NCBI GenBank assembly: GCA_902785925.1
Contig: CADAAI010000018.1
Location: 1-64,000, forward strand
Source of the DNA: an uncultured Bacteroidales bacterium
Lineage (GTDB): Bacteria > Bacteroidota > Bacteroidia > Bacteroidales > Muribaculaceae
Length of the DNA: 64,000 nucleotides
Reading direction: 5' to 3'
In this document: positions 5,080-57,944 of the stretch, in pieces
How positions within the stretch are numbered: the first letter of the stretch is position 1
How the letters are laid out: the number at the start of each line of letters is the position of its first letter
Position numbers and translations under genes: made by a program
Notes under the pieces: model-generated
Databases searched by the model: none
Seen by the model: the letters and a program-made list of their open reading frames with translations, nothing else
Told to the model about the DNA's origin: nothing

Positions 5080-5118
5080 CATATTTTTTGGTTTTTTGAC
5101 GGAATTTTTTGAAACATT

Positions 5119-5133
5119 TGGCACCAGTTTTGC
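5119..5133 (+). promoter_or_regulatory. Sigma-54-type (-24/-12) promoter of the TonB receptor gene
   Basis: TGGCAC (5119-5124), five bases, then TTGC (5130-5133): an exact match to the core of the RpoN promoter, including the GG and GC pairs. Transcription would start near 5145, about 24 bp before the ATG at 5169. It needs an enhancer-binding activator, which is not encoded nearby. Confidence 0.6.
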
Positions 5134-5168
5134 GTCTAATGAGCAGAAAAAGCAAAAAAATAGAGAAA

Positions 5169-7581
5169 ATGAAGAAATTTATCGCAATCCTATTGATGAC
5201 CGTTTGCACCCTGACTGCCATGGCGCAGCAATACAGTGTGCAATGCCAAGTGAACGACAGCGAGGGAGAAGGCATCCCGTTCGCCACGGTTTACATCTAC
5301 AACAGCAACGACACAACAACAGTGATTACTAGCGGCGTGAGTGATGCCTTTGGTAAGGTTGACCACAAGATCAACAAGGCCGGAAGCTACATGATGCGCC
5401 TGCAATTTGTGGGCATGACGCCACAAGACCGCAACTTTGAGGTTAGCGCCTCGGCACCAGTGGCACAGCTGGGCACCATCGTGCTGACGACCCAGTCGAC
5501 GATGCTCAAGGAAGTGGTGGTAGCCACTCAGCGCCAACTCGTGAAGACCGAGATTGACCGTCTCACCTACGACGTTCAGGCCGATGCCGACAGCAAGACC
5601 AGCAATGTGCTCGACATGCTCAAGAAGGTGCCAATGGTCACCGTTGATGGGCAGGACGAGATTCGCGTGAAGGGTACCACCTCGTTCAAGGTTTACCGCA
5701 ATGGTCATCCCGACCCCGCATTGGCCAGCATGAACATGAAGGAAATCCTCAAGGTGATTCCCGCGTCGATGATTAAAAAGATAGAGGTTATTACCGACCC
5801 AGGCGCAAAATATGACGCCGAGGGCACAAGCGCTATCCTCAATATCGTCATGGCCGATGGCAACGCTGGAAGCATGAATGGTGTGACCGGAACAATTGGT
5901 GCAGGTGTTGACAACACAGGCAGCCTCAATGGTAACGCCAACATCACCGCCCAGATGGGAAAGGTGGTGACAGCTATCAACTATGGCTACCAAAACAGGA
6001 ATCGACATGGCGGCCACACCCTCTCGGAGAGTGAACACACCTATACCAACTCAGGAAACAAATTATATAGCTTTAACGATTCGCGAGCCAGCGTGAACGT
6101 GCACTATGGTGATATCAGCGCCAGCTGGGAACCCGATACAACCAACCTGGTTTCGCTCTCGTTTGGCGGCTTCTACTACGACTACCGCGGTGACGGTGTG
6201 AACAACGCTCGCATGACCGACCGCGACGGCAACATCCTGTATAAATACACTACCAATGGTCATGCACCCAAGGGTGACTTCTATGACCTGCACGGGCGCC
6301 TCGACTATCAGCACAAGACACGTCATCCTGGTGAGATGCTCACTCTGAGCTACATGCTCTCGACCAACCACAATGGCAGCAAGACCATCTCAACCTTCAG
6401 CGACATGATCAACTGTCCATTCCCCTACACCGGACAAACCAACGACACTAAAGTTTGAGACAGGTCTGAAGTACATCAACCGCTTGAACAAGAGTGAGGC
6501 GACCTTTGAGTTCATGGGTATGCCCGAGATGGACAACATCACTCTGTTTAACCACCGCACTCATGTGGCAGCAGCCTATGTGAGCCACACCTTCAGCAAG
6601 GGCAATTGGACTACCCGCGAGGGTTTGCGATATGAGTATAGCCGCTTGAATGCCGAGTTCCCTGATGCTCCTCAGGACAACTACCACCGAAACCTGAACG
6701 ATTGGGTGCCTGACCTCAGCATTGAGTATAAGTTTGACTGGGCACACAGTCTCAAGCTCAACTATAGCACCAGCATTCATCGCCCAGGTATCAGCTACCT
6801 CAACCCAGCCATCGAGGAGAACCCAACTTCACGCTCCTATGGTAATCCTAACTTGAGCAGTTCACGCACTCATGGCATCACCTTGACCTATATGCAGATT
6901 GGTTCAAAACTGACATTTAGCTTGAGCCCAAGCATTTCGTTCAGCACCAACGAGATTACAGGCGTGCAATTTACCGAAGGCGACATCTTCGTCTCGACCT
7001 ACGCCAACACCCTGAAGACTCGCAGCATTGGTCTCAATGGATTCATGCAGTGGACTATAGGCCCCAAGACCAGCTTTGTGTTCAACGGCAATGTGTCGCA
7101 CAACCGCTACAAGAGCGATGAACTTGAACTTGAGAACAAGCGCTGGAGCTCATTCTGCTATGGCCAGCTCAACCAGCAGCTTCCCTGGAAACTGCGACTC
7201 AGCATCAGTGCCGGTGAATGGAGCGGAGGAATCAGTGGACTCTATGGATATTACACCGGTAACTGGTTCTACAACCTTGGTCTGCAACGCTCATTCCTCA
7301 AGGAGGACCGCTTGACAGTGCGCCTGAGCGCCGACCGCTTCTTCCACGGCAAGTACGCTTCGATGAAGAGCTACACCAATCAAGGTGACTACACCGGTTG
7401 GAACAAAAACAGCTTCATCATGCGCGGAGTCAAAATCAGCATCAGCTACCGCTTCGGCTCGCTCAAGGCACGCGTTAAGCAAACCGACAAGACCATCGAG
7501 AACGACGACCTCGTGGGTGGCAGCAAGCAAGGTGGAGGCCAAGGCGGCCAGCAAGGCGGGCAAGGCCAGATGGGCAATTAA
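5169..7581 (+). pseudogene. TonB-dependent receptor-like outer membrane protein, broken near 6450
   Basis: The first frame (5169-6458) has a signal peptide, a carboxypeptidase-regulatory-like beta domain (VNDSEGEGIPFATV), and a TonB plug (LTYDVQADADSKTSNVLDMLKKVPMV...IKKIEVITDPGAKYD). The start of a beta-barrel follows. It stops at 6456-6458. The barrel resumes in another frame at about 6451 (KFETGLKYINRL) and runs to 7581, ending in a Gly/Gln-rich tail. Together the parts make about 800 residues, close to the size of the outer-membrane beta-barrel (OMP_b-brl_3) family. The join looks like loss of a short segment with a frame change, not a single-base slip, because residues expected between the two strands seem missing. 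Codon use is the same on both sides, so the break is recent or a sequence error. Confidence 0.75.
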
Positions 7582-7728: not shown

Positions 7729-7756
7729 CCTAAATCTTGAAAAGGCCGTTTTAATA

Positions 7757-7788
7757 TTGTTTCGGTGGATGGGCATGTTGTTACTTTG
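7757..7788 (+). promoter_or_regulatory. Probable promoter of the terminase-like gene
   Basis: TTG (7757-7759), 21 bp, then TTACTTTG (7781-7788). The second position differs from the TAnnTTTG consensus, so this is weaker than the other promoters listed. Confidence 0.4.
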
Positions 7789-7806
7789 CGACAAAAAAGG
7801 AACGAC

Positions 7807-9780
7807 ATGGAAAACACATATAATAATATAACAGCACAGCAACAGAAAGGTGAAAATAGACGAAAGTTTGAGATTGACAGGCTCGACGTTGAGGAGATTG
7901 TTGCACGCAACGAGATGCGACGGCTCGCTCTGGTGGATGACTACGACCCAATAACTGGGCGTGGGTGCTGCGGTAAACGCGTGATGCGTCAAGTGACTAT
8001 TGGACACGAGGTTAACGGCACTTACTACATTCCTGAGACGATGGCCGCCGAACTCGACTCTAAACCATGCACCAGCGAGGAACAATGGCAGAGGTTGCGC
8101 ATAAGACACGACTTTGAATACTGGTGCGCCACTTGTGCCACTATCCTTAACAAAATCACAGGACGTGCTGAGCACATGATACTTAACCGGCCCCAGCGAC
8201 GAGTGTTGCAGGTGCTTGAGAAACAACGATTGGCAGGAAAGCCCCTGCGTCTCATCATGCTCAAGGCACGCCAATGGGGCGGCAGCACACTGGTGCAGAT
8301 GTACATGGCTTGGATACAGATGGTGCTTAAGGATAACTGGAACAGCCTGATATGCGGACATCAGCACCAGACGTCGTCGGCAATCAAGAACATCTACCGT
8401 ATGACTCTGCGCAACTACCCTGAGCACCTGACGCGCGACGGTGAGGTGCCCAAGCTGAAATCCTTTGACGGAACACGCAACGTGCAGCAGCTAAGCGGTA
8501 GCGAGTCGCTGCTGATATCAAGCTCGGCTCACAGCCAGGACGCCATGCGCGGCTACGACGTGAAGATGGCGCACTTGAGCGAGGTGGCCTTCTGGCCATG
8601 CACCACGCAACGCTCACCCGAGGATGTGGTGCGCTCGATAGGTGGCAGCATTCCACTAGAACCCCTTACCATGATTGCGATGGAGTCGACCGCCAACGGC
8701 GTGGGCAACTACTTTCACCAAGAGTGGTTGCGAGCCAAGGGCGGCAAGAGCGACAAAGAGGCGGTGTTTGTGCCCTGGTATGAAATTGAAATATACCGCA
8801 TGGAAGTTCCTGACGTGGCCCAACTAATTGCCGAGATGGACAGTTACGAAAAATGGCTGTGGGAAGACCTGGGCTGCACCCTTGAGATGATAAACTGGTA
8901 CCACAACAAACGCCGCGAATACTGCAACCACAGCCAGATGACCTCAGAGTTTCCCACCACCGATCTCGAAGCCTTCACCAGCACAGCCCGCACCGTGTTC
9001 TCGACCGAGATTATCGACAACGTGCGCCACAGCACCACCACTCCCCTACTGCGCGGCGACATGGTGTCACGCGGCAACAATCCATTGAAGGGCCTCGACT
9101 TTGTGAAAAACGATACCGGCGACATGGAGATATGGAAGCGGCCCGAACACTCTTCCATGCGCAACCGTTACATCGCGGTTGTTGATGTGGGCGGCAAGAG
9201 CGACAAGAGCGACTGGTCGGTTATTGCCGTCATCGACAGCCATCTAGACGCTACAGGCAAAGCGCTTGAATGCCGCCCCGAAGTGGTGGCACAATGGCGC
9301 GGGCACATCCACCACGACCAGCTAGCTGTGAAAGCAGTGCAGATTGCGCACTACTACAACAACGCGTTGCTGGTGGTGGAGAGCAACACGCTCGAATGTG
9401 AGGGGTATCTCGATACTCTCAACTACGAGAAACTCAAGAGCATGTACAACAACCTGTACTTCCGCAACAACAAGAACGGAGAGAAAAAATTCGGATTCCA
9501 AACCAATCGCGAGACAAAGCAGAGCACCATCTACAACCTAATCGCCTATGCTCGCGACGGCTCTTATATCGAGCGCGACAACAAGGCGGTGGATGAGATG
9601 GCGTGCTATGAGATAGCCCCTAACGGCAAGAGCTATGCCGCACGGCGTGGAAAACACGACGACATACTCATGACACGCGCCATTGGACTGTGGATAATCG
9701 AAGAAATGCGGCTCAAGGAAGGACGTTCACGAGCAATAAATCCCGACAACTTCATCAAGCAAGCGAAACTGATTTTGTGA
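7807..9780 (+). CDS. Phage terminase large subunit-like ATPase/nuclease, isolated
   Basis: About 657 residues from the ATG at 7807. The ATPase half has a terminase-style Walker A, LKARQWGGST (Lys about 153 at the head of the loop, Gly where most ATPases have Lys), and a Walker B-like AHLSEVAFW. The nuclease half shows the RNase H-like acidic positions: AVVDVGGKSDKSDWSV, VVESNTLE and KHDDILMT. Terminases cut and pump viral DNA into proheads. There is no portal, small terminase, protease, capsid or integrase gene on either side, and base composition and codon use look like the host genes. It may be a domesticated phage gene or a remnant. The first 90 residues are not recognisable and include a CCGK segment. 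Confidence 0.85.
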   Translation: MENTYNNITAQQQKGENRRKFEIDRLDVEEIVARNEMRRLALVDDYDPITGRGCCGKRVMRQVTIGHEVNGTYYIPETMAAELDSKPCTSEEQWQRLRIRHDFEYWCATCATILNKITGRAEHMILNRPQRRVLQVLEKQRLAGKPLRLIMLKARQWGGSTLVQMYMAWIQMVLKDNWNSLICGHQHQTSSAIKNIYRMTLRNYPEHLTRDGEVPKLKSFDGTRNVQQLSGSESLLISSSAHSQDAMRGYDVKMAHLSEVAFWPCTTQRSPEDVVRSIGGSIPLEPLTMIAMESTANGVGNYFHQEWLRAKGGKSDKEAVFVPWYEIEIYRMEVPDVAQLIAEMDSYEKWLWEDLGCTLEMINWYHNKRREYCNHSQMTSEFPTTDLEAFTSTARTVFSTEIIDNVRHSTTTPLLRGDMVSRGNNPLKGLDFVKNDTGDMEIWKRPEHSSMRNRYIAVVDVGGKSDKSDWSVIAVIDSHLDATGKALECRPEVVAQWRGHIHHDQLAVKAVQIAHYYNNALLVVESNTLECEGYLDTLNYEKLKSMYNNLYFRNNKNGEKKFGFQTNRETKQSTIYNLIAYARDGSYIERDNKAVDEMACYEIAPNGKSYAARRGKHDDILMTRAIGLWIIEEMRLKEGRSRAINPDNFIKQAKLIL

Positions 9781-9934: not shown

Positions 9935-10062
9935 TTAATTAGTCAATAAGAGAAAAAAATCTAAGAAATTTCTCATACATCATAAAGAAAATAGTTGTTT
10001 TATAGATAATTGTGTATTTAAAGGAACGGGACAGTCGTGAGACTATCCCCTTTTCTTTTTTA
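9935..10062 (+). ncRNA. Candidate small RNA, about 125 nt
   Basis: The gap 9781-10103 holds a consensus promoter and, 100 bp on, a strong terminator, with no coding frame between them. The predicted transcript has an A/U-rich 5' part that can form GAGAAA/UUUCUC. It ends in a GC-rich hairpin (GGGACAGTC-GTGA-GACTATCCC) followed by CCTTTTCTTTTTT. I cannot match it to a known RNA family with confidence; a 6S-like or Bacteroidales-specific sRNA is possible but unproven. Confidence 0.5.
10028..10061 (+). terminator. Terminator of the candidate small RNA
   Basis: GGGACAGTC and GACTATCCC pair with one mismatch around a GTGA tetraloop and are followed by a run of T. Confidence 0.7.
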
Positions 10063-10103
10063 TATGTGCACACAAAGTGGTGCTATTTATTTAAGAATTT
10101 GTA

Positions 10104-10877
10104 CTATTTCTTAAGGAGGTGCTGGCGGCGAAGCTCGCTGATTGTAATGGCAGCAGCAATGCCCACGTTGAGGCTCTCGCTACGTGCTCCGCGCCGTGGC
10201 ATAGACGGAATGTGGAGCCGCTGCGTGACGTGGGCGGCAATCTTTGGGCTGATACCCTGCCCCTCGTTGCCAAAGATGACAAAGGCCCCACCGGTAGGCA
10301 ACTGGGCAGCATAGATGTTGTCGCCATCGAGGAAAGTGCCCATCACAGGCATGTCGTCAAAATCATCGAGGAAGAAGTCGAGTTCGCAGTAATGCACCTT
10401 GACGCGACTGATGGCGCCCATAGTAGCCTGCACCACCTTGTGGTTGTAAACATCAACTGTGGAGCGGCTAGCGAAGATGTTGGTAATTCCGTACCAGTCG
10501 GCAAGACGCATGATAGTGCCCAAGTTGCCAGGATCCTGAATGTTGTCGAGCACGATATTTAGGCCGTTGCGCACCTCATCGTCGGTGTAAGTGGTTTCGG
10601 GAATCTCATAGACAGCCATCACGTCGCTAGGAGTTGTGAACTGTGACATGCGCGCCATTTGACTCTTGTGGGCGAGAACGAGCTTAGGGTAATGTTCAGC
10701 CGTGCCCTGCTGCTCATACCATGCCTTGGTGGCAATGAGGTAGCGGCAGTTGAAAGCGTTCCAAGTGTCGCGCACGCACTTCCATCCCTCGGCAACAAAG
10801 AGGCCTTCCTTGTCGCGGTATTTCTTCACAGCTAGCGATGAAACCAGCTTAATTATTCCGTTGTTGATATCTTGCAT
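10104..10877 (-). CDS. SpoU/TrmH family RNA 2'-O-methyltransferase
   Basis: 257 residues. An N-terminal RNA-binding part (residues 1-95, VKKYRDKEGLFVAEGWK) precedes a SPOUT methyltransferase domain that carries all three SpoU motifs: LDNIQDPGNLGTIMR, the IFGNEGQGI knot segment, and SESLNVGIAAAI. The enzyme methylates a ribose 2'-OH in rRNA or tRNA with S-adenosylmethionine; the exact nucleotide cannot be told, and RlmB-like 23S rRNA modification is a reasonable guess. It follows the PP2C gene by 12 bp on the same strand and is probably co-transcribed with it. Confidence 0.9.
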   Translation of the reverse strand: MQDINNGIIKLVSSLAVKKYRDKEGLFVAEGWKCVRDTWNAFNCRYLIATKAWYEQQGTAEHYPKLVLAHKSQMARMSQFTTPSDVMAVYEIPETTYTDDEVRNGLNIVLDNIQDPGNLGTIMRLADWYGITNIFASRSTVDVYNHKVVQATMGAISRVKVHYCELDFFLDDFDDMPVMGTFLDGDNIYAAQLPTGGAFVIFGNEGQGISPKIAAHVTQRLHIPSMPRRGARSESLNVGIAAAITISELRRQHLLKK

Positions 10878-47705: not shown

Positions 47706-50700
47706 ATGAGAAAGTTTTTCCTATTCATGATGGCACTTAGTGTGTCGCTCGCTATGGCAGCAGGCGATAAACTAAGCGCTCCAACCAAGGTGTTCTTGCA
47801 ACAACGCGCCAATGGCGTGACAGTGAACGCAGAACAAAAGCGCGCACTCGCAACACCAAAGAAAATCAATGGGGTGGAGTATGTGGAATGCTTCATTTCT
47901 CTCAATGGCGCTTCAATAGCCGAACTCGAGGCTAACGGAGTGAAAGTTACTGGCAAGTTCAGTGATTTTGTTATTGCTAGTATTCCTATCACCAAGCTTG
48001 AAACAGTTTCTCAGCTCAAAGGTGTCAAACAAGTGGGTATCTCTCGCAACGTGCGACTGCTCACCGACGTGGCTAAAGGCATCGTAAATGCCGATAAAGC
48101 ATGGGACGGAACAAACTATGGTCTACCCCAAGGCTATACCGGACAAGGTGTAGTTGTTGGTCTTATCGATGACGGTATCCAGTTCAATCACCGCGCTTTC
48201 CTTGATGACAACGGCAACACCCGCGTTAAAGCGGTTTATATGCCTAACGCAACAAGCGCCAACGGCGGCACAAAGGCAACTATCGACGGAGTGCAGCTCA
48301 TGGGTTACCAGTACACCACTCCCAGCCAAATTGCAAACCTCACCTGCGACGACACTGGCGAGAGCCACGGCACGCACACCTCAGGTATCGCTGCCGGTTC
48401 CCATGTGGGCAACTATGCTGGTATGGCTCCCGAGGCCGACCTGATTCTCGCTGGCTGCGGTGCTTCACTCACCGACAATGCCATTATGAGCTCGGCCAAG
48501 TACATTGGTTGGTATGCCCAGCAGCTTGGCAAGCCATGCGTTATCAGCATCAGCCTGGGTAGCGACATCGGTCCCCATGATGGAATGAGCTTGATTAGCC
48601 GTGCCTACACCGAGGTGGCCAACACCTATGGCGCAGTTATCCTGCTTGCTGCAGGTAACGAGGCCGACATCATTGGCCACGCTCACAAGACCCTTTCAAG
48701 CTCCGACGACTACATGGCTGTCACCAATAACGTTTCGGGCAGCTGGTGGGGAAGTGCCACCGGTTCCTGCGACATCTGGAACAGCACTAGCGATGAGCTT
48801 CAAATTAAAATTATTGTAGGCAGTTCACAGAGTAACTGGATGACCAGTGGCACCTTTAGCGGTGTTACCGTTTCGGGTGGTGTTGATGCCTACAACAATC
48901 GCTACAACTTGTATATCGAGAGCAGCGAGTCATCGGCAACCTACGTAATCAAGGGTAGCGCCGGAAACACCATCAACGTATATACCGACTGCTGGTACAG
49001 CACCCTGAGCTCTTCGTCGGGCAGCGTGAGTGGTTACACCATCACCCCAGGAACCTATGAGGGGTCGATGTGTGACGACATGACATCTCCTAAGGTCATC
49101 AGTGTGGGAGCACAGGCTTCTCGCTCTAGCGACGGCTACGGCCAGGGCGATGTGGCCTACTTCTCAAGCTTTGGTACCGACTTCAATGGCGTTAACCAGC
49201 CCTTCATCACCGCTCCTGGCCACTATGTGATTTCATCGGTCAATGGCTATGACTCTTATCAGTCGGTTTCTTGGTCAACGAGCTACAATGGTCAGACCTA
49301 CAATTGGGGTCAGATGAGTGGTACCTCAATGGCAACTCCTTGTGCCGCTGGTGTGGTTGCTCTGTATCTGCAGGCCGACCCAACCCTCGACGTTGACCGC
49401 GTGAAGGAAATTATCGCCGAGACCGCCACTGCCTATCCCGCCAGTGCTTCTAGCCCTGTCATGGCTCGTGGACATGGTATCATCAATGCCCTCGACGGTA
49501 TTGAGTACATCCTCCAGCATCAAGGCCCAACAATTGTTGCCAAGCCCGATAATGTTAACTTTGAGGGCTATCAAGGCGAGACCTACACAGAAGTTATCTC
49601 TGTTAAGGGTTACAACCTGTCCCAGCCCATTAATATCGCTAAGAGCGGTTCAAATGTTTACAGTGTAAGCCCAACAACCATCAGTCCTGAGGACGCTTAC
49701 AACGGTGTTGACGTAACTGTGACATACGCTCCTACAGCAGCTGGCCAGACAACAGCAACCCTCACCCTCACTAGTGCCGAGGCCGAGACCAAGACCGTGA
49801 CAATCACTGGCGTTGCTCAACCTAGGGTTCCAACCATTCTTACCGATCCCGAGAGCCTGAGCTTCAATGCTAAACTATCGACTCCAATGACCAAGATCGT
49901 GAAAGTGAACGGCTTGTTCCTCACCAACGACATCAACATCACCCTTGAGGACCAGAATGGTGTGTTTACCGTTTCGCCAACCACAATTCCAAAGAACAGC
50001 ACAGGCATTGACACTCCAGTTAATGTGAATGTGACCTTCACTTCGGACGTAGAAGGCGAATATTCAGGCATGCTCACCTTCACCAGCAATGGTGCTGTGA
50101 CCAAGACTGTCGCACTCACTGCTAAAGCAAGCGACAAGGGCACCGCAGCCGATCCTTACCTCGACATTGCCAAATATGAATCAATCGACGAGGTAGGTGC
50201 TACTGTAACTGGCATGAGCACTATCTACAAGTACACCGAGTATGAGGACGACGAGTGCGCATGGCTCACCGTCTCTAACTATGGTGCCCTCAAGACCGAT
50301 GGCAACCAGAACTGGTTCACTATCGAAGGCACCGAGAAGACCGGCACAGAGTCATGGGGCGCTACCGATGTATTCTTGGGCAGCTCACCCTACTTTGGCA
50401 GTGGAACTGCTTACTATACCGACTGGAACGAGAATTATCAAACATTCTACGTTACCAACTGCTCACAGGTTAAGCAGTTTGCCGAGAACCGCAGCAACAC
50501 TACTTATCCATTGAAGATGTACATCTATGAGTGCACTGTCAATGCCAATGGAACAGTTACTCCTAGCAGCAATCCTGTTCAAACCAAGCAGAACACGACC
50601 ACCAGCAAGGAAGTTCTGGCATCGGATCCTCTCGACCCAGAGAAGGTTTACAAGATTGCCATCTACAACGACTACTCTAAGCTCTATGAGATTGGCTTCA

Positions 50701-51614
50701 AGACTCCTATTTCAGGCGTTCAGGCTCCAGTGGCTACCGAGGCAACACTCGTAGGTCCTACCTATTTCACTGCCAACTGGACTCCATGCGAGGGTGCTAC
50801 AAGCTATATCCTGCGCGTTACTCCTAAGAACTACGACATCCTCACCGAGGGCTTCTCGAAGTTCACCAAGAGTGGTTCACAAGACATCAGCAGCAACCTT
50901 GACAACTACATGGATAACGCAGGTTGGACAGGTTCTAAGATATATGAAGCCATTGGTGGCGCACGCTTAGGCACTGGTTCATCTGTTGGATCAATGACTT
51001 CTCCAGGCCTCACACTGACCGAGAACAAGGTAACTGTAACCTTCAAGGCTAAGACTTTAAACAACGACACCAACTGCAACTTCAAGGTTTCTTGTGGCAA
51101 CTCAAGCGAGACCGTTACACTGCCTAACAACACCGAAGCAACCTACACTGTAGTTCTCAACTGCAATGCAGCTGCCAACCAGAAGATTAAGTTTGAGACC
51201 ACAGCCGCTAGCAAGCGTGTGGTACTCACCAGCATCCACATCATCGATGGCGAGCATGCTGGCAAGGCTATCGACCTCGACGGTGTAACATTCACTGACA
51301 TCACTACCAACAGCTACAAGGTTGTTGACCTGTCGCCAGCCACTACCTACCTCTATGATGTTAAGGCTGTTTACGGCAACAAACAGAGCTGGTGGTCTAA
51401 CGCTATCTCAGTCACAACCGTTGGTGGCGTAATTCCAGGCGACGTTAATGGCGATGGTCTGGTAACTTCGGTTGATGTCACTGCCCTTTACAACTATCTG
51501 CTCAACAATGACGACAGCGACATTGTTAACGGCGACCAGAACGGTGACGGCCAGATTACCTCTAACGACGTTACAGTTGTCTACAACATCATGCTTGGCC
51601 AGAAAAAGAATTAA
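47706..51614 (+). CDS. Subtilisin-like (S8) serine protease with C-terminal dockerin-like repeats
   Basis: 1302 residues. A signal peptide and inhibitor-like propeptide (to about 130) precede an S8 domain with Asp in GLIDDGIQ (about D155), His in ESHGTHTSG (about H221) and Ser in MSGTSMATP (about S541); a protease-associated insertion lies between His and Ser. After about 600 there are two ASH-like domains, an unnamed domain of about 190 residues shared with the three C10 proteases (about 815-1005), a choice-of-anchor/jelly-roll part (about 1020-1230) and a dockerin-like pair at the end (DVNGDGLVTSVDVTALYNYL). It should be an exported endoprotease that feeds on or processes proteins. Confidence 0.88.
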   Translation: MRKFFLFMMALSVSLAMAAGDKLSAPTKVFLQQRANGVTVNAEQKRALATPKKINGVEYVECFISLNGASIAELEANGVKVTGKFSDFVIASIPITKLETVSQLKGVKQVGISRNVRLLTDVAKGIVNADKAWDGTNYGLPQGYTGQGVVVGLIDDGIQFNHRAFLDDNGNTRVKAVYMPNATSANGGTKATIDGVQLMGYQYTTPSQIANLTCDDTGESHGTHTSGIAAGSHVGNYAGMAPEADLILAGCGASLTDNAIMSSAKYIGWYAQQLGKPCVISISLGSDIGPHDGMSLISRAYTEVANTYGAVILLAAGNEADIIGHAHKTLSSSDDYMAVTNNVSGSWWGSATGSCDIWNSTSDELQIKIIVGSSQSNWMTSGTFSGVTVSGGVDAYNNRYNLYIESSESSATYVIKGSAGNTINVYTDCWYSTLSSSSGSVSGYTITPGTYEGSMCDDMTSPKVISVGAQASRSSDGYGQGDVAYFSSFGTDFNGVNQPFITAPGHYVISSVNGYDSYQSVSWSTSYNGQTYNWGQMSGTSMATPCAAGVVALYLQADPTLDVDRVKEIIAETATAYPASASSPVMARGHGIINALDGIEYILQHQGPTIVAKPDNVNFEGYQGETYTEVISVKGYNLSQPINIAKSGSNVYSVSPTTISPEDAYNGVDVTVTYAPTAAGQTTATLTLTSAEAETKTVTITGVAQPRVPTILTDPESLSFNAKLSTPMTKIVKVNGLFLTNDINITLEDQNGVFTVSPTTIPKNSTGIDTPVNVNVTFTSDVEGEYSGMLTFTSNGAVTKTVALTAKASDKGTAADPYLDIAKYESIDEVGATVTGMSTIYKYTEYEDDECAWLTVSNYGALKTDGNQNWFTIEGTEKTGTESWGATDVFLGSSPYFGSGTAYYTDWNENYQTFYVTNCSQVKQFAENRSNTTYPLKMYIYECTVNANGTVTPSSNPVQTKQNTTTSKEVLASDPLDPEKVYKIAIYNDYSKLYEIGFKTPISGVQAPVATEATLVGPTYFTANWTPCEGATSYILRVTPKNYDILTEGFSKFTKSGSQDISSNLDNYMDNAGWTGSKIYEAIGGARLGTGSSVGSMTSPGLTLTENKVTVTFKAKTLNNDTNCNFKVSCGNSSETVTLPNNTEATYTVVLNCNAAANQKIKFETTAASKRVVLTSIHIIDGEHAGKAIDLDGVTFTDITTNSYKVVDLSPATTYLYDVKAVYGNKQSWWSNAISVTTVGGVIPGDVNGDGLVTSVDVTALYNYLLNNDDSDIVNGDQNGDGQITSNDVTVVYNIMLGQKKN

Positions 51615-51636
51615 TATCACTGCAAGCATGCGAAAT

Positions 51637-51670
51637 AGAGAAAGCGCTCACAGCTGTGAGCGCTTTCTCT
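51637..51670 (+). terminator. Terminator after the S8 protease gene
   Basis: A perfect 34-nt palindrome with 17-bp arms (AGAGAAAGCGCTCACAG) followed by TTGTATATTTT. Confidence 0.85.
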
Positions 51671-51723
51671 TTGTATATTTTAATGTATAAAAATAAATAA
51701 CTAATTAAAGAATAACTAAAAAC

Positions 51724-51754
51724 TTGCATAATTAATATAATTTCTGTAATTTTG
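51724..51754 (+). promoter_or_regulatory. Promoter of the first C10 protease gene
   Basis: TTG (51724-51726), 20 bp, TAATTTTG (51747-51754). A conserved leader follows: CCAATGATTGAATTGG at 51774 recurs before the second protease gene at 55297. Confidence 0.65.
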
Positions 51755-51845
51755 ACGGCTACTTTTCAAAATCCAATGATTGAATTGGGTTAAAGACCAA
51801 GCATAGGCTATTTTTAAAACAACTATATTTTTAAATTACTCATCA

Positions 51846-54800
51846 ATGAAAAAACTATTATCATTAATGACTGTCGTCATGGTTGCTCTGCAACTGATGG
51901 CAGCGCCTGTTGATGTTTCAACGGCTAAAACTAAGGCCGAGCAGTACCTTGTGAACAAGGTGTATGCTGGCAAGTACATGGCACCAGGAGCCGCACAGGC
52001 TACCTTGCTCAAGACAGAAATGGGTGACAAAGCCCAAACTCCTGTTTACTACATTTTTAATACCAAAACATCTTTCGTCATCGTATCGGGTGACGACCGT
52101 GCTGAGGAAATCCTCGCAGTGGGCGACAAACCTCTCTTGCTCGAGCGCATCCCAACCAACATGCAGGTGTGGCTCGATGGCTACAAACAGCAACTTGACT
52201 GGCTGCTCACCCACCCCGATGTAAAGGTTAACAAACCTACAACTTACAGGTCACCAAAGGCAAAGGACACAACCTATGGGCCATTATTAACAGGTCTTTG
52301 GGATCAAGTGGCACCTTACTGGGACCAATGTAGCTTCACCTATAGTGGCACAACCTATCAGTGCTATACTGGTTGCCCTGCAACATCGGCTTCGCTGGTG
52401 CTCTATCACTGGAAGTATCCCACCGACCCCGTTGGTCCACTTCCCGCTTACACTGCAACCCTTGACCTTGGTTACTGGCAGAGCGTAACCTATACCTATG
52501 CCGCTCTTCCACAAGTAACCTTCGATTGGGACCACATGAAAGACAAATATGGCACTTGGTATGATGAAAACGGCGCCACTCACAACGAGCCCTACACTGC
52601 CGTAGAAGGTGAAGCAGTAGCTACACTGATGCGCTATGTGGGTCAGGCCGAGCACATGATGTATGGTACAGCAGCTGCCGGTGGTAGTGGTATCTACACC
52701 AGCGATGCTCAGAATGTTGCCGACATGTTCATTCTGTTTGGTTACGATGAGGCAACTACACGTCTCGTTCACAAATCAAGCTACAGCGAGGCCAACTGGG
52801 CTGCTCTCCTTCAAGAGGAAATGGTAGAGGGACGTCCCGTAGTGTTCATGGCTGTTGATAACGGTGCAGGTGGTCATGCCTTCAACGTTGACGGCTACAA
52901 CTCAAGCATCAATAAATATCACATCAACTTTGGTTGGAGCGGTGACGGTAACAACTGGTGTGTAATGAATGCTTTCTCCGATGGCGACGGATACACCTTC
53001 AACAGTGACCAGCAGATGGTAATCGGTATCCAGCCTCCAATGGGTATGATCAAGACCAATCCTTCGGAAGTAAACTTCAGCGGATTTGCTGGTGAGACTT
53101 ACACCCAAACTGTAAGAGTTCAGGCCCGCAACATTGAGAACAATGTGGAAATCGCCCTTAGTGGTGACAATGTTTATAGCATCAGCCACACCACCATCAC
53201 TCCCGAACAAGCAGCCAACGGTGTTGATGTCACCGTGACCTACGCTCCTACCCAGGCTGGTAACACCTCAGCAACCATGACCCTCTCGTGTGCCGACGAG
53301 GAAGTAGAGACCGTTACCGTGCCCATCACTGGTGAGGCTGCACCCCGTGTGCCAACTCTCCTTGTCAACCCCGAGAGTCTCGACTTCGCTGCTACACTTG
53401 ATAGGACCGTCACAAAGACAATCACTCTTACTGGTGCATTCATTACTAGCGACGTCACCGTAACACTTAACGACACCAAGGGTGTATTCACTGTTTCTCC
53501 AACTGTGATTTCACAAAACAGCACTAATGTCAACACTCCTGTGACTGTTGCTGTATCATTTAGCTCGGCAACTGAGGGCAGCTTCACTGGCTCAATCACA
53601 TTTGCTAGCGAGGGTGCCGAGAGTAAGACTGTTAACCTCACTGCAATAGCTCGTGATGGTGGAACAGCTGCCGACCCATTCCTCAACATCGCCAATTACG
53701 AAACCATCGACGAGGCTGGATCTAATGTGGATGCCATGAGCACTATCTACAAATACATTGAGTATGAAGACGACGATTGCGCATGGCTCACCGTTTCTGC
53801 CTATGGCGCGATGAAGGCCGACGCAAATCAAAACTGGCTTAACACATCATCTCTCTCGCAATATAACAATGACTGGAATGCAACTGATATATTCCCAGGT
53901 GATGCTGCATACTTTGGAAGCAATCAAAGTTACTCTATTTATGGTAGTGGAAATCAGTCATTCTATGTAACCAATTGCACTCAAGTCAAGGCCCTTGTTA
54001 AGGGAGGTGGCTACGGCAGCTCTACGGCAAGCTTATCAATCTACGAGTGCACGCTCAATGCCAATGGAACTGTCACTCCCTCAACTAATCCTGTTGACAC
54101 TGAAGAAGGTGGCGACGGAGTTATCACCTCGGCAGAGCTTGATGAGTCAAAGATTTATAAGGTGCAACTGACTGGTGGCGGCTCTTATCCCGACCTCCTG
54201 GAGATCGGCTTCAAGACTGCACTCAGTCACTATGAGACTCCAGTGGCCACTCCAGCTACTGAGATTACAGCCAATAGCTTCTTGGCAAACTGGAACCTGT
54301 GCGAGGGCGCCGACAGCTACATCCTGCGAGTTGTGCCAAAGAACTACGACATACTCACCGAAAGCTTCGCAAAATTCACCAAGACAGGAGCTCAGGACAT
54401 TGGCAACAATCTTGACAACTATATGGACAATCCCGGTTGGACAGGCTCTAAGCTCTATGAGGCTATTGGCGGAATTCGTTTCGGCACAGCTTCTTCGGTT
54501 GGTACTTTGACATCTCCTGACCTAACATTGACCGACAACAAGGTTACTGTCACATTCAAGGCTAAGGCATTCAACAACGATACCAATTGCAACTTCAAGA
54601 TTTCTTGCGGCGATGCAAGTGAGACAGTCACTCTGGCTGACAACAACGAAGCTACCTACACAGTAGTCCTTGACTGCAACGCTGGAGCAGGACAGAAGAT
54701 CAAGTTTGAAACAACTTCCGGTGGCAAGCGCGCAATTCTTACCAGCATCCACGTCATCGATGGCGCGCACGCTAATACATTCAATTCCATCGACTATGAT

Positions 54801-55127
54801 GGTGTAACCTTCACAGGTATTACCAATAACTTCTTCAAAGTCAATGACCTTGACCCAGCAACAACCTACCTCTATGACGTGAAGGCAGTGTTTGGTGCTA
54901 AGCAAAGCAAGTGGTCAAACGTGATTGTTGTCACCACTCTGGGTGGAGTTGTTGGCGACGTGAACGGCGATGGCGAAGTCACCGCAGTCGATGTCACCGC
55001 CCTCTACAACTTCTTGCTTAACAACGACTCAAGCGACATCGTAAATGGTGACCAGAACGGCGACGGCGAGATCACCGCGGGCGATGTGACCTTCGTCTAC
55101 AACATCTTGCTTGGTCAGAAGAAATAA
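51846..55127 (+). CDS. Streptopain-like (C10) cysteine protease 1 with dockerin-like repeats
   Basis: 1093 residues. A signal peptide (to about 20) and a propeptide with the SpeB inhibitor motif VIVSGDDRAEEIL precede a C10 domain with catalytic Cys in YTGCPATSASL (C177) and His in GGHAFNVDGY (H344), followed by YHINFGWSGDGNNW. Two ASH-like domains (about 405-600), the 190-residue shared domain (about 600-790), a choice-of-anchor region nearly the same as in the S8 protease (about 800-1020) and a dockerin-like pair (DVNGDGEVTAVDVTALYNFL) complete it. The propeptide should keep the enzyme inactive until cleaved. It has its own promoter and terminator. Confidence 0.9.
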   Translation: MKKLLSLMTVVMVALQLMAAPVDVSTAKTKAEQYLVNKVYAGKYMAPGAAQATLLKTEMGDKAQTPVYYIFNTKTSFVIVSGDDRAEEILAVGDKPLLLERIPTNMQVWLDGYKQQLDWLLTHPDVKVNKPTTYRSPKAKDTTYGPLLTGLWDQVAPYWDQCSFTYSGTTYQCYTGCPATSASLVLYHWKYPTDPVGPLPAYTATLDLGYWQSVTYTYAALPQVTFDWDHMKDKYGTWYDENGATHNEPYTAVEGEAVATLMRYVGQAEHMMYGTAAAGGSGIYTSDAQNVADMFILFGYDEATTRLVHKSSYSEANWAALLQEEMVEGRPVVFMAVDNGAGGHAFNVDGYNSSINKYHINFGWSGDGNNWCVMNAFSDGDGYTFNSDQQMVIGIQPPMGMIKTNPSEVNFSGFAGETYTQTVRVQARNIENNVEIALSGDNVYSISHTTITPEQAANGVDVTVTYAPTQAGNTSATMTLSCADEEVETVTVPITGEAAPRVPTLLVNPESLDFAATLDRTVTKTITLTGAFITSDVTVTLNDTKGVFTVSPTVISQNSTNVNTPVTVAVSFSSATEGSFTGSITFASEGAESKTVNLTAIARDGGTAADPFLNIANYETIDEAGSNVDAMSTIYKYIEYEDDDCAWLTVSAYGAMKADANQNWLNTSSLSQYNNDWNATDIFPGDAAYFGSNQSYSIYGSGNQSFYVTNCTQVKALVKGGGYGSSTASLSIYECTLNANGTVTPSTNPVDTEEGGDGVITSAELDESKIYKVQLTGGGSYPDLLEIGFKTALSHYETPVATPATEITANSFLANWNLCEGADSYILRVVPKNYDILTESFAKFTKTGAQDIGNNLDNYMDNPGWTGSKLYEAIGGIRFGTASSVGTLTSPDLTLTDNKVTVTFKAKAFNNDTNCNFKISCGDASETVTLADNNEATYTVVLDCNAGAGQKIKFETTSGGKRAILTSIHVIDGAHANTFNSIDYDGVTFTGITNNFFKVNDLDPATTYLYDVKAVFGAKQSKWSNVIVVTTLGGVVGDVNGDGEVTAVDVTALYNFLLNNDSSDIVNGDQNGDGEITAGDVTFVYNILLGQKK

Positions 55128-55155
55128 TAACTTCTTAACAAACATATTAATCAAA

Positions 55156-55183
55156 GAAGGCACCTCACTTGTGGGGTGCCTTC
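55156..55183 (+). terminator. Terminator after C10 protease 1
   Basis: GAAGGCACC and GGTGCCTTC pair across a 10-base loop, followed by CTTGTTTTGTTTT. Confidence 0.8.
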
Positions 55184-55267
55184 CTTGTTTTGTTTTAATT
55201 CCATCAATAAAAACAACGATTAGTTGAAAGATTGTCAAAAAAAATAGCATATTAATATTTTTTTTCG

Positions 55268-55275
55268 TATATTTG
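55268..55275 (+). promoter_or_regulatory. -7 box of the C10 protease 2/3 operon
   Basis: TATATTTG, about 87 bp before the ATG at 55362. No clear -33 box is seen. The leader shares CCAATGATTGAATTGG with the first protease gene. Confidence 0.5.
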
Positions 55276-55361
55276 AAGGCGAATAATTTATAGCCCCAAT
55301 GATTGAATTGGACAAAGACCAAACAAAGACTATTAACAATATTACAATACAAAAAACATCA

Positions 55362-57914
55362 ATGAAAAAGCTATTATCTTTCCTCACTATTACCTTAGTT
55401 GCTATGCAACTGATGGCAGTCCCTGTTGATATTTCAACAGCTAAGAGTAAAGCTGAGCAATATCTCGCTCAAAAGGTATATACTGGTAAATACATGACTC
55501 CAGGAGCACTACAGGCAACCTTGCTCAGAATGGAGATGGGTGACAAAGCTAAGGCTCCTGTGTATTACATTTTCAACACAGCAACCTCGTTTGTCATCGT
55601 ATCGGGCGACGACCGCGCCGAGGAAATCTTAGCCTACGGCGACAAGCCCCTAAACCTCGACCGCATTCCCAGCAACATGCAGGCTTGGCTCGACGGCTAC
55701 AAGGTTCAGCTCGACTGGCTGCTTACTCACCCCGAGGCAAAGGTTGAAAGGCCTACGACTTACAAGTCGCCAAAAGCAGACAACACAACCATCGGTCCAC
55801 TGCTCACAGCCCTTTGGGATCAAGAGGCTCCTTACTGGAACCAATGCAAGTTCAACTACAACGGCACAAACTATATGTGCTACACCGGTTGCCCTGCTAC
55901 CTCGGCATCGATGGTGCTATACTACTGGAAGTATCCCATCACGCAAGTGGGACCTGTTCCAGCCTACGATGGAGTGCTTGAAATAGGCACATGGACAAGT
56001 GTGAACTACACCTACCCCGCCCTGCCCGCTGTCACCTTCGACTGGGACAACATGATTGACGATTACACTAGCTCTAATGCTACAGGCTACACCGCAGCTC
56101 AAGCCAACGCCGTTGCCACCCTGATGCGCTATGTAGGCCAGGCCGAGCACATGAAGTATGGCACCCCTGATGCTGGAGGCAGCGGCATCTACACCGTCGA
56201 CGCTCAGATTATTGCCGATATGTTCATAGGCTTTGGCTACGACGAGGCGACCACGCGCATGGTTCAAAAGTCAGATTACACCGATGCTGAATGGGCAGCT
56301 CTCATTCAAGAGGATATAATAGATGGTCGCCCAATAGTTTATTTGGGTACTGCTGGTAATGCTGGTGGTCATGCCTTCAATGTCGACGGCTACGACTCCG
56401 GCACCAACAAGTATCACGTCAATTTCGGTTGGAGTGGTGAGGGCAACGCCTGGTGTGCTTTAAATGCCTTCATCGATGACACCGGCGCCAACTTTAACCT
56501 GAATCAGATAATGATAATGGGAGTTCAGCCTTCGGTAGGCATTATCAAGGCTACCCCCTCCACAGTCGATTTCCAGGGTTTTGCCGATGAAACCTACACC
56601 CAAGTGGTGAAAGTCAAGGCTCACAACATTGAGAGCAATATCAACATTGCGTTCAGTGGCGACAATGTCTACAGCGTGAGTCACACTACCATCACTGCCG
56701 AGGAGGCTGCAAGCGGCGTTGACGTGGTTGTGACCTATGCTCCCACCGAGGCTGGTGAAACCAGCGCGACCCTCACTCTATCGTGTGCCGACGAGGATGT
56801 TGAGACAGTTACCGTGCCCATAAAAGGCTTTGCACGGCCTCACGTGCCCACCCTCATCGTGGAACCCACATCGCTTGATTACACCACATCGCTCAAGCGC
56901 CCCATCACTAAGACTGTTAGCCTCACTGGCGTTTATCTCACTAGCGACGTGACTCTCACCCTAAACGACGACAACGGCGTGTTCATCGTTTCGCCAACAA
57001 CTATTCCTCAGAGCAGCGTCAATCTCGACACCCCAGTTGAGGTGGCTGTAACATTCCACCCATCGGTCGAGGGACGATTCTCGGGTTCACTAGTGTTTGT
57101 CAGCGAGGGCGCCGAGATCGTTACAGTTGAGCTCAGCGGAAAGGCTAACGAGGGCAACACCGCAAGCGACCCCTATCTCGATATCAGCAAGTATGAGACA
57201 ATCGATGAGGCAGGATGGAACACTAGCGACATTCGCAACCTGTACAAATACACCGAGTATGAGAACGAGGAATGCGGCTGGCTCACACTCTCCAACTATG
57301 GTGTGATAAAGGCCGACGCCACACAGAACTGGTTCACAAATGGCGGCACTGTCAGGACAGGCTCCGATACATGGACCGCCATCGACGTGTTCCCTGGCAG
57401 CGCAAGCTACTTTACCGGTGAAGGACAGTTTGCTGATTTTAGCGAGGATTTCCAAACGTTCTACGTGACCAACTGCTCACAGGTTAAGCAACTGGCAGTG
57501 AACCGCAGCAACTCGACCTATCCACTGAAGATGTACATTTATGAGTGCACCCTTAATGACGATGGAACTCTCACTTCAAGCGAAACTGCTATTCAGACTA
57601 AGCAGAACACCACAACCAATACCAAAGAGGTACTAGCATCGGACGAACTTGATCCGAGCAAAATTTACAAAGTTGCAATCTTTAATGACTTCTCCAAGCT
57701 CTATGAGATTGGTTTCAAAACTTCGCTAAGCACTTCAGTTGCTGGCGACGTGAATGGCGACGGTCAGGTTACCTCGGTAGACATCACCGTGCTTTATAAC
57801 TTCCTGCTCTCTGGCGACACTAACTACATGGTTAACGGCGACCAGAATCAGGACGGCGAGATAACTGCGGGCGATGTGACCTTCGTCTACAACATCCTGC
57901 TGGGTGTCAATTAA
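55362..57914 (+). CDS. Streptopain-like (C10) cysteine protease 2 with dockerin-like repeats
   Basis: 850 residues from the ATG at 55362; a start at 55299 would place 21 extra residues before the signal peptide. Catalytic Cys lies in YTGCPATSAS (C177) and His in GGHAFNVDGY (H337), with NFGWSGEGNAW after it. Two ASH-like domains (about 395-590), the shared 190-residue domain (about 600-785) and a dockerin-like pair (DVNGDGQVTSVDITVLYNFL) follow. The choice-of-anchor module of protease 1 is missing. The next protease gene starts 30 bp on with no terminator between, so the two form one unit. Confidence 0.9.
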   Translation: MKKLLSFLTITLVAMQLMAVPVDISTAKSKAEQYLAQKVYTGKYMTPGALQATLLRMEMGDKAKAPVYYIFNTATSFVIVSGDDRAEEILAYGDKPLNLDRIPSNMQAWLDGYKVQLDWLLTHPEAKVERPTTYKSPKADNTTIGPLLTALWDQEAPYWNQCKFNYNGTNYMCYTGCPATSASMVLYYWKYPITQVGPVPAYDGVLEIGTWTSVNYTYPALPAVTFDWDNMIDDYTSSNATGYTAAQANAVATLMRYVGQAEHMKYGTPDAGGSGIYTVDAQIIADMFIGFGYDEATTRMVQKSDYTDAEWAALIQEDIIDGRPIVYLGTAGNAGGHAFNVDGYDSGTNKYHVNFGWSGEGNAWCALNAFIDDTGANFNLNQIMIMGVQPSVGIIKATPSTVDFQGFADETYTQVVKVKAHNIESNINIAFSGDNVYSVSHTTITAEEAASGVDVVVTYAPTEAGETSATLTLSCADEDVETVTVPIKGFARPHVPTLIVEPTSLDYTTSLKRPITKTVSLTGVYLTSDVTLTLNDDNGVFIVSPTTIPQSSVNLDTPVEVAVTFHPSVEGRFSGSLVFVSEGAEIVTVELSGKANEGNTASDPYLDISKYETIDEAGWNTSDIRNLYKYTEYENEECGWLTLSNYGVIKADATQNWFTNGGTVRTGSDTWTAIDVFPGSASYFTGEGQFADFSEDFQTFYVTNCSQVKQLAVNRSNSTYPLKMYIYECTLNDDGTLTSSETAIQTKQNTTTNTKEVLASDELDPSKIYKVAIFNDFSKLYEIGFKTSLSTSVAGDVNGDGQVTSVDITVLYNFLLSGDTNYMVNGDQNQDGEITAGDVTFVYNILLGVN

Positions 57915-57944
57915 AAGCGACTATTCTAAAAAAACATTCTCACA

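Follow-up and report, generated by a model that had tools for sequence, protein, structure and literature searches.

The terminase large subunit encoded in the window, that is, the whole 64,000-nucleotide stretch of Muribaculaceae DNA analysed here, is probably the DNA-packaging motor of a short-tailed phage that has been domesticated into a gene transfer agent (GTA)-like viriform, vertically inherited in the Muribaculaceae and in some neighbouring families; the functional steps ascribed to it below are deduced from its genes. The terminase belongs to a set of chromosomal core genes which, in the window's genus, are spread nearly one by one over six loci, of which four share a promoter type. 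The set is of phage origin, conserved and dispersed, shares an upstream element, is under purifying selection and displays a host-like phylogeny. The preliminary description of the locus had termed the terminase an orphan, which is wrong at the scale of the genome: further chromosomal loci carry capsid, portal, adaptor, nozzle, scaffold-like and endolysin genes. Of the roles that it had offered, gene-transfer particles fit best, because these other particle genes are conserved along with the terminase.

The terminase gene and its surroundings

The window gene encodes a full-length terminase with the ATPase and nuclease motifs initially named for it (Table 1). The protein matches phrog_2 (terminase large subunit) of PHROGs with an E value of 1.1e-15, while Pfam gave no match at 0.001; an alternative, longer reading is offered by the mechanical ORF, which opens at GTG 7765. 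Residue conservation, counted over 60 full-length terminase relatives, revealed that the catalytic positions are nearly invariant (58 to 60 of 60). They include E259 in HLSEVAF, which we take, from the motif, to be the Walker B/catalytic glutamate. The GC content of the gene (0.536) and its GC3 (0.676) are near those of most neighbouring genes, in agreement with the codon use first reported. These neighbours are host genes and encode a phosphodiesterase, an ABC transporter, a GntR regulator, an outer-membrane receptor, a SpoU methylase and a PP2C phosphatase.

The contig begins at window base 1, such that the view upstream of the terminase extends over less than 8 kb. Within this scope the statement that no other phage gene lies nearby is upheld: PHROG searches of two groups of ten ORFs each, in the ranges 0.5-12.6 kb and 12.8-26.3 kb, identified no further phage structural family near the terminase, and contiguous structural genes, integrase, repressor and replication genes are absent from the locus in the window ORFs to 26 kb. 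A prophage next door was thus rejected, none being present in the window ORFs scanned or in the genus loci, and no complete prophage adjoins the terminase of relatives in the fetched genus loci. The gene had been placed between an outer-membrane receptor and a small RNA. The receptor is present, but its sequence is divided between two ORFs, 5109-6458 and 6484-7581, which may reflect a frameshift, a pseudogene or a sequencing error; in a relative (L047) it is one 844-aa ORF. The small RNA remains putative, as no Rfam family attains its gathering score in the region 3' of the terminase; the best match, at 9991-10115, is to BTnc231 and lies below threshold (E 0.07; its 19.9 bits fall short of the gathering score of 80.4). 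Further along, at 47706-60473, the window carries four similar, large, secreted-looking proteins in tandem, which form a single sequence cluster by BLAST.

Terminase loci in other species are also flanked by host genes, which differ from those of the window. The neighbours vary among the more distant species, while closer ones (L047, L079) keep parts of the arrangement, reordered.

Table 1. Features of the window terminase locus and positions of the gene set in the window genome (G000)
Feature	Position	Strand	Remarks
Promoter-like element, TTTTAATATTGTT-N19-TNNCTTTGC	window 7749..7789	+	ends 17 bases 5' of terminase ATG
Terminase large subunit, 657 aa	window 7807..9780	+	ATG start; stop-free translation; phrog_2
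Walker A KARQWGGST, residues 153-161	window 8263..8289	+	K153, G158, S160, T161 each in 60/60 full-length rows
E259 of HLSEVAF	window 8581..8583	+	E in 60/60
Nuclease motif DVGG...D, D460 and D469	window 9184..9213	+	both D in 60/60
E525 of VVESN, acidic, nuclease side	window 9379..9381	+	E in 59/60
Nuclease motif HDD, D618-D619	window 9658..9663	+	each D in 58/60
Terminase	G000 C18 (window contig)
Endolysin and portal	G000 C4, near 90.2-92.0 kb
Adaptor	G000 C4, 113.8-114.4 kb
Capsid and scaffold-like gene	G000 C11, near 18.8-20.7 kb
Nozzle	G000 C25, 1.5-4.2 kb
Small-terminase-like gene	G000 C24, near 11 kb

A gene set scattered over the chromosome

In G000 the genes of the set are single-copy and occupy six loci on five contigs (Table 1). 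The dispersal is no effect of assembly, because in G004, which is assembled as one 3.34-Mb contig, the nozzle (926 kb), terminase (937 kb), portal (1358 kb), adaptor (1540 kb) and capsid (1894 kb) genes lie far apart and span about 970 kb. The arrangement differs between genomes. The nozzle protein, termed c1, is a conserved protein of 490-920 aa that adjoins the terminase in other genomes; nozzle and terminase are also neighbours in G188, G155 and G113. Searches with the portal of Bacteroides phage BKO1-TP3 revealed a chromosomal portal of ~470 aa in most genomes with a portal match. Some portals adjoin the capsid gene, which is preceded by an acidic protein of ~130 aa, and others, including that of G000, adjoin the M15 endolysin. 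By coordinates, the adaptor is next to the portal in G062, and in G066 it is flanked by nozzle and portal. In G121, which belongs to a different genus of the family, the nozzle, terminase, scaffold-like, capsid, adaptor and portal genes form one cluster of ~9.4 kb amid host genes, with the adaptor between capsid and portal. In neighbouring families the set is found in a few clusters, and its versions are larger and more phage-like. No integrase, repressor, RecT, helicase or replication genes were found at the set loci that were read, and in the genus no tail fibre, ejection protein or receptor-binding protein was identified with the set.

By its terminase (39% identity), the nearest named phage is BKO1-TP3 (PQ571269), and this phage and related prophages in G051, G006, G000 and G455 are the closest full relatives of the set proteins. 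The genes of BKO1-TP3 are contiguous and accompanied by integrase, repressor, RecT, helicase and replication genes, whereas the chromosomal set is scattered and its proteins are mostly shorter (461 versus 650 aa for the portal, 129 versus 259-307 aa for the scaffold-like protein). In the PQ571269 record, gp51, the terminase, is annotated as a tail spike protein, and gp9, a 213-bp ORF, as a portal protein. G000 itself also holds a BKO1-TP3-type prophage, distributed over at least two contigs (C48 = L153, C35 = L154). This prophage was rejected as the source of the window terminase, its own terminase being 45% identical over residues 91-328.

Identities of the set proteins

Hidden Markov models built from the chromosomal families were run against BKO1-TP3-type phage and prophage proteins. 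The model of the genus terminases matched BKO1-TP3 gp51 with an E value of 1.8e-214, and highly significant matches were likewise obtained for portal (3.8e-183), capsid (1.1e-106), nozzle (3.9e-98) and endolysin (4.5e-58); the match was moderate for the scaffold-like protein (1.3e-10) and weak for the adaptor (3e-4). Pfam assigned the capsid to SU10_MCP (3.9e-49), the portal to P22_portal (1.1e-17) and the lysin to Peptidase_M15_3, while nozzle and adaptor were unmatched at the limits used, save for two sub-threshold propeller matches of one nozzle.

Structure models were compared with the PDB for these two proteins. For c1 (pLDDT 91), tail-complex chains from short-tailed phages, P22 gp10, SU10 and phiCrAss001 among them, fill the best 16 rows, with Z 25.3-20.8 and alignments over 385-525 residues; T7 follows at Z 18-19, and unrelated propellers appear from Z 19.7 down. 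As modelled, c1 has the fold of a podovirus tail nozzle of the T7 gp12/P22 gp10/SU10 type. The 189-aa adaptor, P190 (pLDDT 86), retrieved phage portal-tail or connector chains in its best 18 rows (Z 7.7-5.0), among them phiCrAss001, SU10, GP4 and N4, with T7 gp11 lower at Z 4.2-4.4. With all Z scores below 8, fold and neighbourhood together identify P190 with moderate confidence as a podovirus head-tail adaptor.

A further gene of 149 aa is probably the small terminase. It matches a phage ORF beside the terminase (E 1.7e-10) and belongs to phrog_27246, a family without assigned function; the label rests on position, because the ORF matched is the one adjoining the phage terminase. At L299-L303 this gene is accompanied by a conserved partner of 147 aa and has a distinct conserved upstream sequence. 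The partner has neither known relatives nor a phage match (PHROG E 0.09 at best), and its membership of the set is a guess.

The capsid ORFs of the genus (e.g. L169:12114-13511) display an N-terminal hydrophobic stretch in 42 of 42 cases, lipobox-like in 40. A hydrophobic start was also observed in all five ORFs from neighbouring families and G121 (one lipobox-like); of seven phage or prophage ORFs, five have it, never in lipobox-like form. The defence role that had been suggested for the terminase found no support: six set proteins gave no defence match at 0.001 in PADLOC-DB (2023 library), and a defence gene was rejected.

A shared promoter-like upstream element

The element TTTTAATATTGTT-N19-TNNCTTTGC was first noticed upstream of the terminase, endolysin-portal and c1 genes of G000. 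When 18 genomes were searched with as many as two mismatches allowed, G000 held 16 forward and 13 reverse matches, and the reversed pattern gave none. Of the G000 matches, seven are exact: four stand before set genes (terminase, endolysin-portal, nozzle and adaptor), two before AAA_25/helix-turn-helix genes, and near the last one no gene is clearly apparent. The adaptor was found via the element, and its orthologues lie behind the same element in six further genomes. At up to three mismatches the element is present in 52 of 65 upstream regions of set genes in the 18 genomes, with the split terminase of G010 and the nozzle of G049 each counted twice, against 0 of 413 controls, drawn from the remaining ORFs of these loci with a length of 150 aa or more (6 of 413 at four mismatches). 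By gene, it precedes the terminase in 14/19 regions, the endolysin in 6/7, the nozzle in 14/19, the scaffold-like gene in 6/6 and the adaptor in 12/14; the adaptor rows are in part non-independent, 7 of the 14 coming from genomes in which the adaptor was first detected through the element, and the other seven give 5/7 at the same limit. The small-terminase-like locus lacks the shared element.

The element is not specific to the set, since several of the 29 matches in G000 precede a multi-copy AAA_25/helix-turn-helix family. Members of this family, an AAA_25 ATPase with a helix-turn-helix end and the same promoter type as the set, were observed at L241:5472-6890, L244:828-2189 and L247:5386-6738.

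Distribution, selection and inheritance

The terminase is present in 95 of 101 genus genomes and in 47 of the 48 of high quality (completeness >=90%, contamination <=5%), and is therefore not confined to one strain. Nearly all copies are one long open frame, the primary copies of G010 and G041 carrying one stop. Matches to the portal were obtained in 95/101 genomes (47/48 high-quality), to the capsid in 96/101 (46/48) and to the nozzle in 99/101 (48/48), totals that include G006, whose sole portal and capsid matches are prophage copies. All four genes occur together in 45 of the 48 high-quality genomes, the exceptions being G066 (no terminase match), G080 (no portal or capsid) and G084 (no capsid). 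The adaptor was recovered by protein search in 50/101. Most of the genomes surveyed are draft MAGs.

Across the family sample, the terminase was found in 227 of 247 genomes and 29 of 30 genera (162/171 high-quality). A sample of 295 genomes of the order gave 24 matches, 22 of them strong. Four of the strong matches are in Muribaculaceae and 17 in six other families (44-49% identity), and the remaining one, G340 (38-47% identity), is embedded in a phage-like region whose genes are contiguous. Terminase and capsid gave strong matches in the identical 22 genomes of this sample; weak extra matches differ between terminase (G483, G560) and capsid (G601). Two carriers from neighbouring families, G577 and G610, are single-contig genomes with both genes.

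Selection was estimated as dN/dS by NG86, with medians taken from pairs with dS of 0.05-1.5, which are not independent. The median is 0.19 for the terminase (187/435 pairs) and 0.21 for the capsid (300/378), compared with 0.06 for the LeuRS control (275/325). The terminase and capsid are thus under purifying selection, about three times weaker than that on LeuRS. Close pairs gave terminase values of 0.085 (G015-G047), 0.145 (G041-G044) and 0.096 (G050-G055). The earlier argument that conserved motifs point to selection is borne out by these values together with the retained catalytic residues, and the host role then proposed is supported by the same two observations and by the presence of the gene in most genomes of the genus and family samples.

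Distance matrices of 26 genomes were strongly correlated (Mantel r of 0.95 for terminase-capsid, 0.88 for terminase-LeuRS and 0.90 for capsid-LeuRS, over non-independent pairs), and 0 of 2000 permutations reached the observed r. In the terminase tree the chromosomal copies of the family are set apart from phages (support 94/100), those of neighbouring families form one group (100/99) and the phages another, less firmly supported one (78/87). The likeliest history of the set would be one ancestral capture followed by break-up, which went furthest in the window's genus.

Proposed mechanism and alternative explanations

We propose that a regulator of the host would act on the shared promoter and switch the set on in some cells, in which capsid and scaffold would build procapsids on the portal. 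The terminase would fill these with chromosomal DNA through a headful-type cut, adaptor and nozzle would complete a short tail, and the M15 endolysin would release particles that deliver host DNA to kin. Both the packaging of host DNA and its delivery to other cells are read from the predicted functions of the genes. Full packaging of the viriform's own genome appears implausible given its spread over ~970 kb in G004. As a doubtful variant, the particle may assemble at the membrane via the hydrophobic, lipobox-like capsid N-terminus; it would then be a membrane-coupled packaging machine, with a release unlike that of classical lytic GTAs.

The same capsid feature bears on an unlikely alternative, in which the head genes would form a host organelle of other use, such as killing of relatives, defence, a cargo compartment or release of DNA for biofilms. 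The hydrophobic start of all 42 genus capsids, lipobox-like in 40, could mean membrane assembly, and a receptor-binding protein was not found in the set; however, five of seven phage or prophage capsids likewise start hydrophobic, no PADLOC family was matched among the set proteins scanned, and a terminase with ATPase and nuclease intact, combined with portal, adaptor and nozzle, constitutes a set for packaging and ejecting DNA. It is very unlikely that the scattered genes instead serve as helpers for packaging one particular mobile element, a satellite-like hijacking made permanent. In favour of this, six genus genomes (G094, G082, G081, G084, G053 and G078) carry a second, diverged terminase (L367-L372). 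The fetched stretches hold no other recognised phage structural genes, some of these copies contain a stop, and in L370 the gene adjoins AAA_25 and DUF6371 genes. Nevertheless, second terminases occur in few genomes while the set is family-wide, and no element common to the carriers was seen; they stand on long branches, and their placement in the tree is unsure.

That the genes are remnants of a degenerating ancient prophage which drifted apart, some lingering without function, would accord with the descent of all of them from a BKO1-TP3-like phage, with proteins shorter than the phage versions, portal and scaffold-like protein among them, and with the stops in a few terminase copies. This explanation is disfavoured because of the selection data (dN/dS of ~0.2 and invariant catalytic residues) and is highly improbable; near-universal single-copy retention over genus and family, the presence of terminase and capsid in the same 22 genomes and the occurrence of one upstream element at unlinked loci also stand against it. 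An artefact of assembly or binning, with phage contigs mixed into MAGs, would be conceivable in a survey in which the majority of genomes are MAGs, but is contradicted because single-contig genomes carry the genes: five lie far apart on the 3.34-Mb contig of G004, and G577 and G610 hold terminase and capsid on single contigs. Furthermore, the window copy lies between host genes and terminase distances track LeuRS. Contamination was thus rejected, and an artefact is barely credible.

If the favoured explanation, a domesticated GTA-like particle, is correct, a domesticated particle for packaging DNA is carried by a whole family of gut bacteria, whose habitats include the rumen and the guts of other animals. 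This would constitute a route of transfer without a counterpart for Bacteroidota in the literature searched and would account in part for the flow of genes among gut Bacteroidales. It would also represent an operon-like viral set split gene by gene with co-regulation retained.

Comparison with known systems

The available text of PMC9662315 describes GTAs as having particle proteins derived from caudoviricetes, an endogenised genome, often at multiple loci, and mostly vertical inheritance with co-diversification with the host; further features given there are that the GTA's own genome is not fully packageable, that mostly random host DNA is encapsidated and that this DNA is delivered to other cells. 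In the set described here, caudoviricete derivation is seen, from genes alone, for terminase, portal, capsid, scaffold-like protein, nozzle and endolysin, and weakly for the adaptor. The genes are endogenised at multiple loci (six loci on five contigs in G000; ~970 kb in G004) and have co-diversified vertically with the hosts (Mantel r of 0.88 and 0.90 with LeuRS; tree split of 94/100). With three of the six defining features found in this gene-level sense, we describe the set as GTA-like, short of a proven GTA. Literature searches, mostly without full text, found no GTA of Bacteroidota, Bacteroidales or Muribaculaceae, and a description may exist elsewhere; in the text available, PMC12946183 places GTA-like packaging in Bacillota and names lateral transduction for Bacteroides.

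Judged by its description, the reported system most similar in kind is FpGTA of Faecalibacterium (PMC12946183). According to the accessible part of that report, it too is found in a gut bacterium, has its genes for TerS, TerL, portal, scaffold, capsid and lysis in two operons that are not linked, is most likely podovirus-like and is conserved in the Faecalibacterium genomes examined there. In contrast with the two operons of this Bacillota system, the Bacteroidota set occupies about six near-single-gene loci. For FpGTA, particles and about 9-kb DNA are reported as demonstrated in the same part of PMC12946183, whereas the Muribaculaceae set is known from genes. The portion of PMC9662315 on RcGTA and the alphaproteobacterial type I GTAs describes similar properties: the genes derive from caudoviricetes, sit at several unlinked places on the chromosome (five loci in R. 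capsulatus), are inherited vertically and have diversified together with their hosts. RcGTA, as described there, has a 49-nm tail and one main cluster, whereas the Muribaculaceae set has nozzle and adaptor genes of a short tail, and most of its structural genes stand alone or paired.
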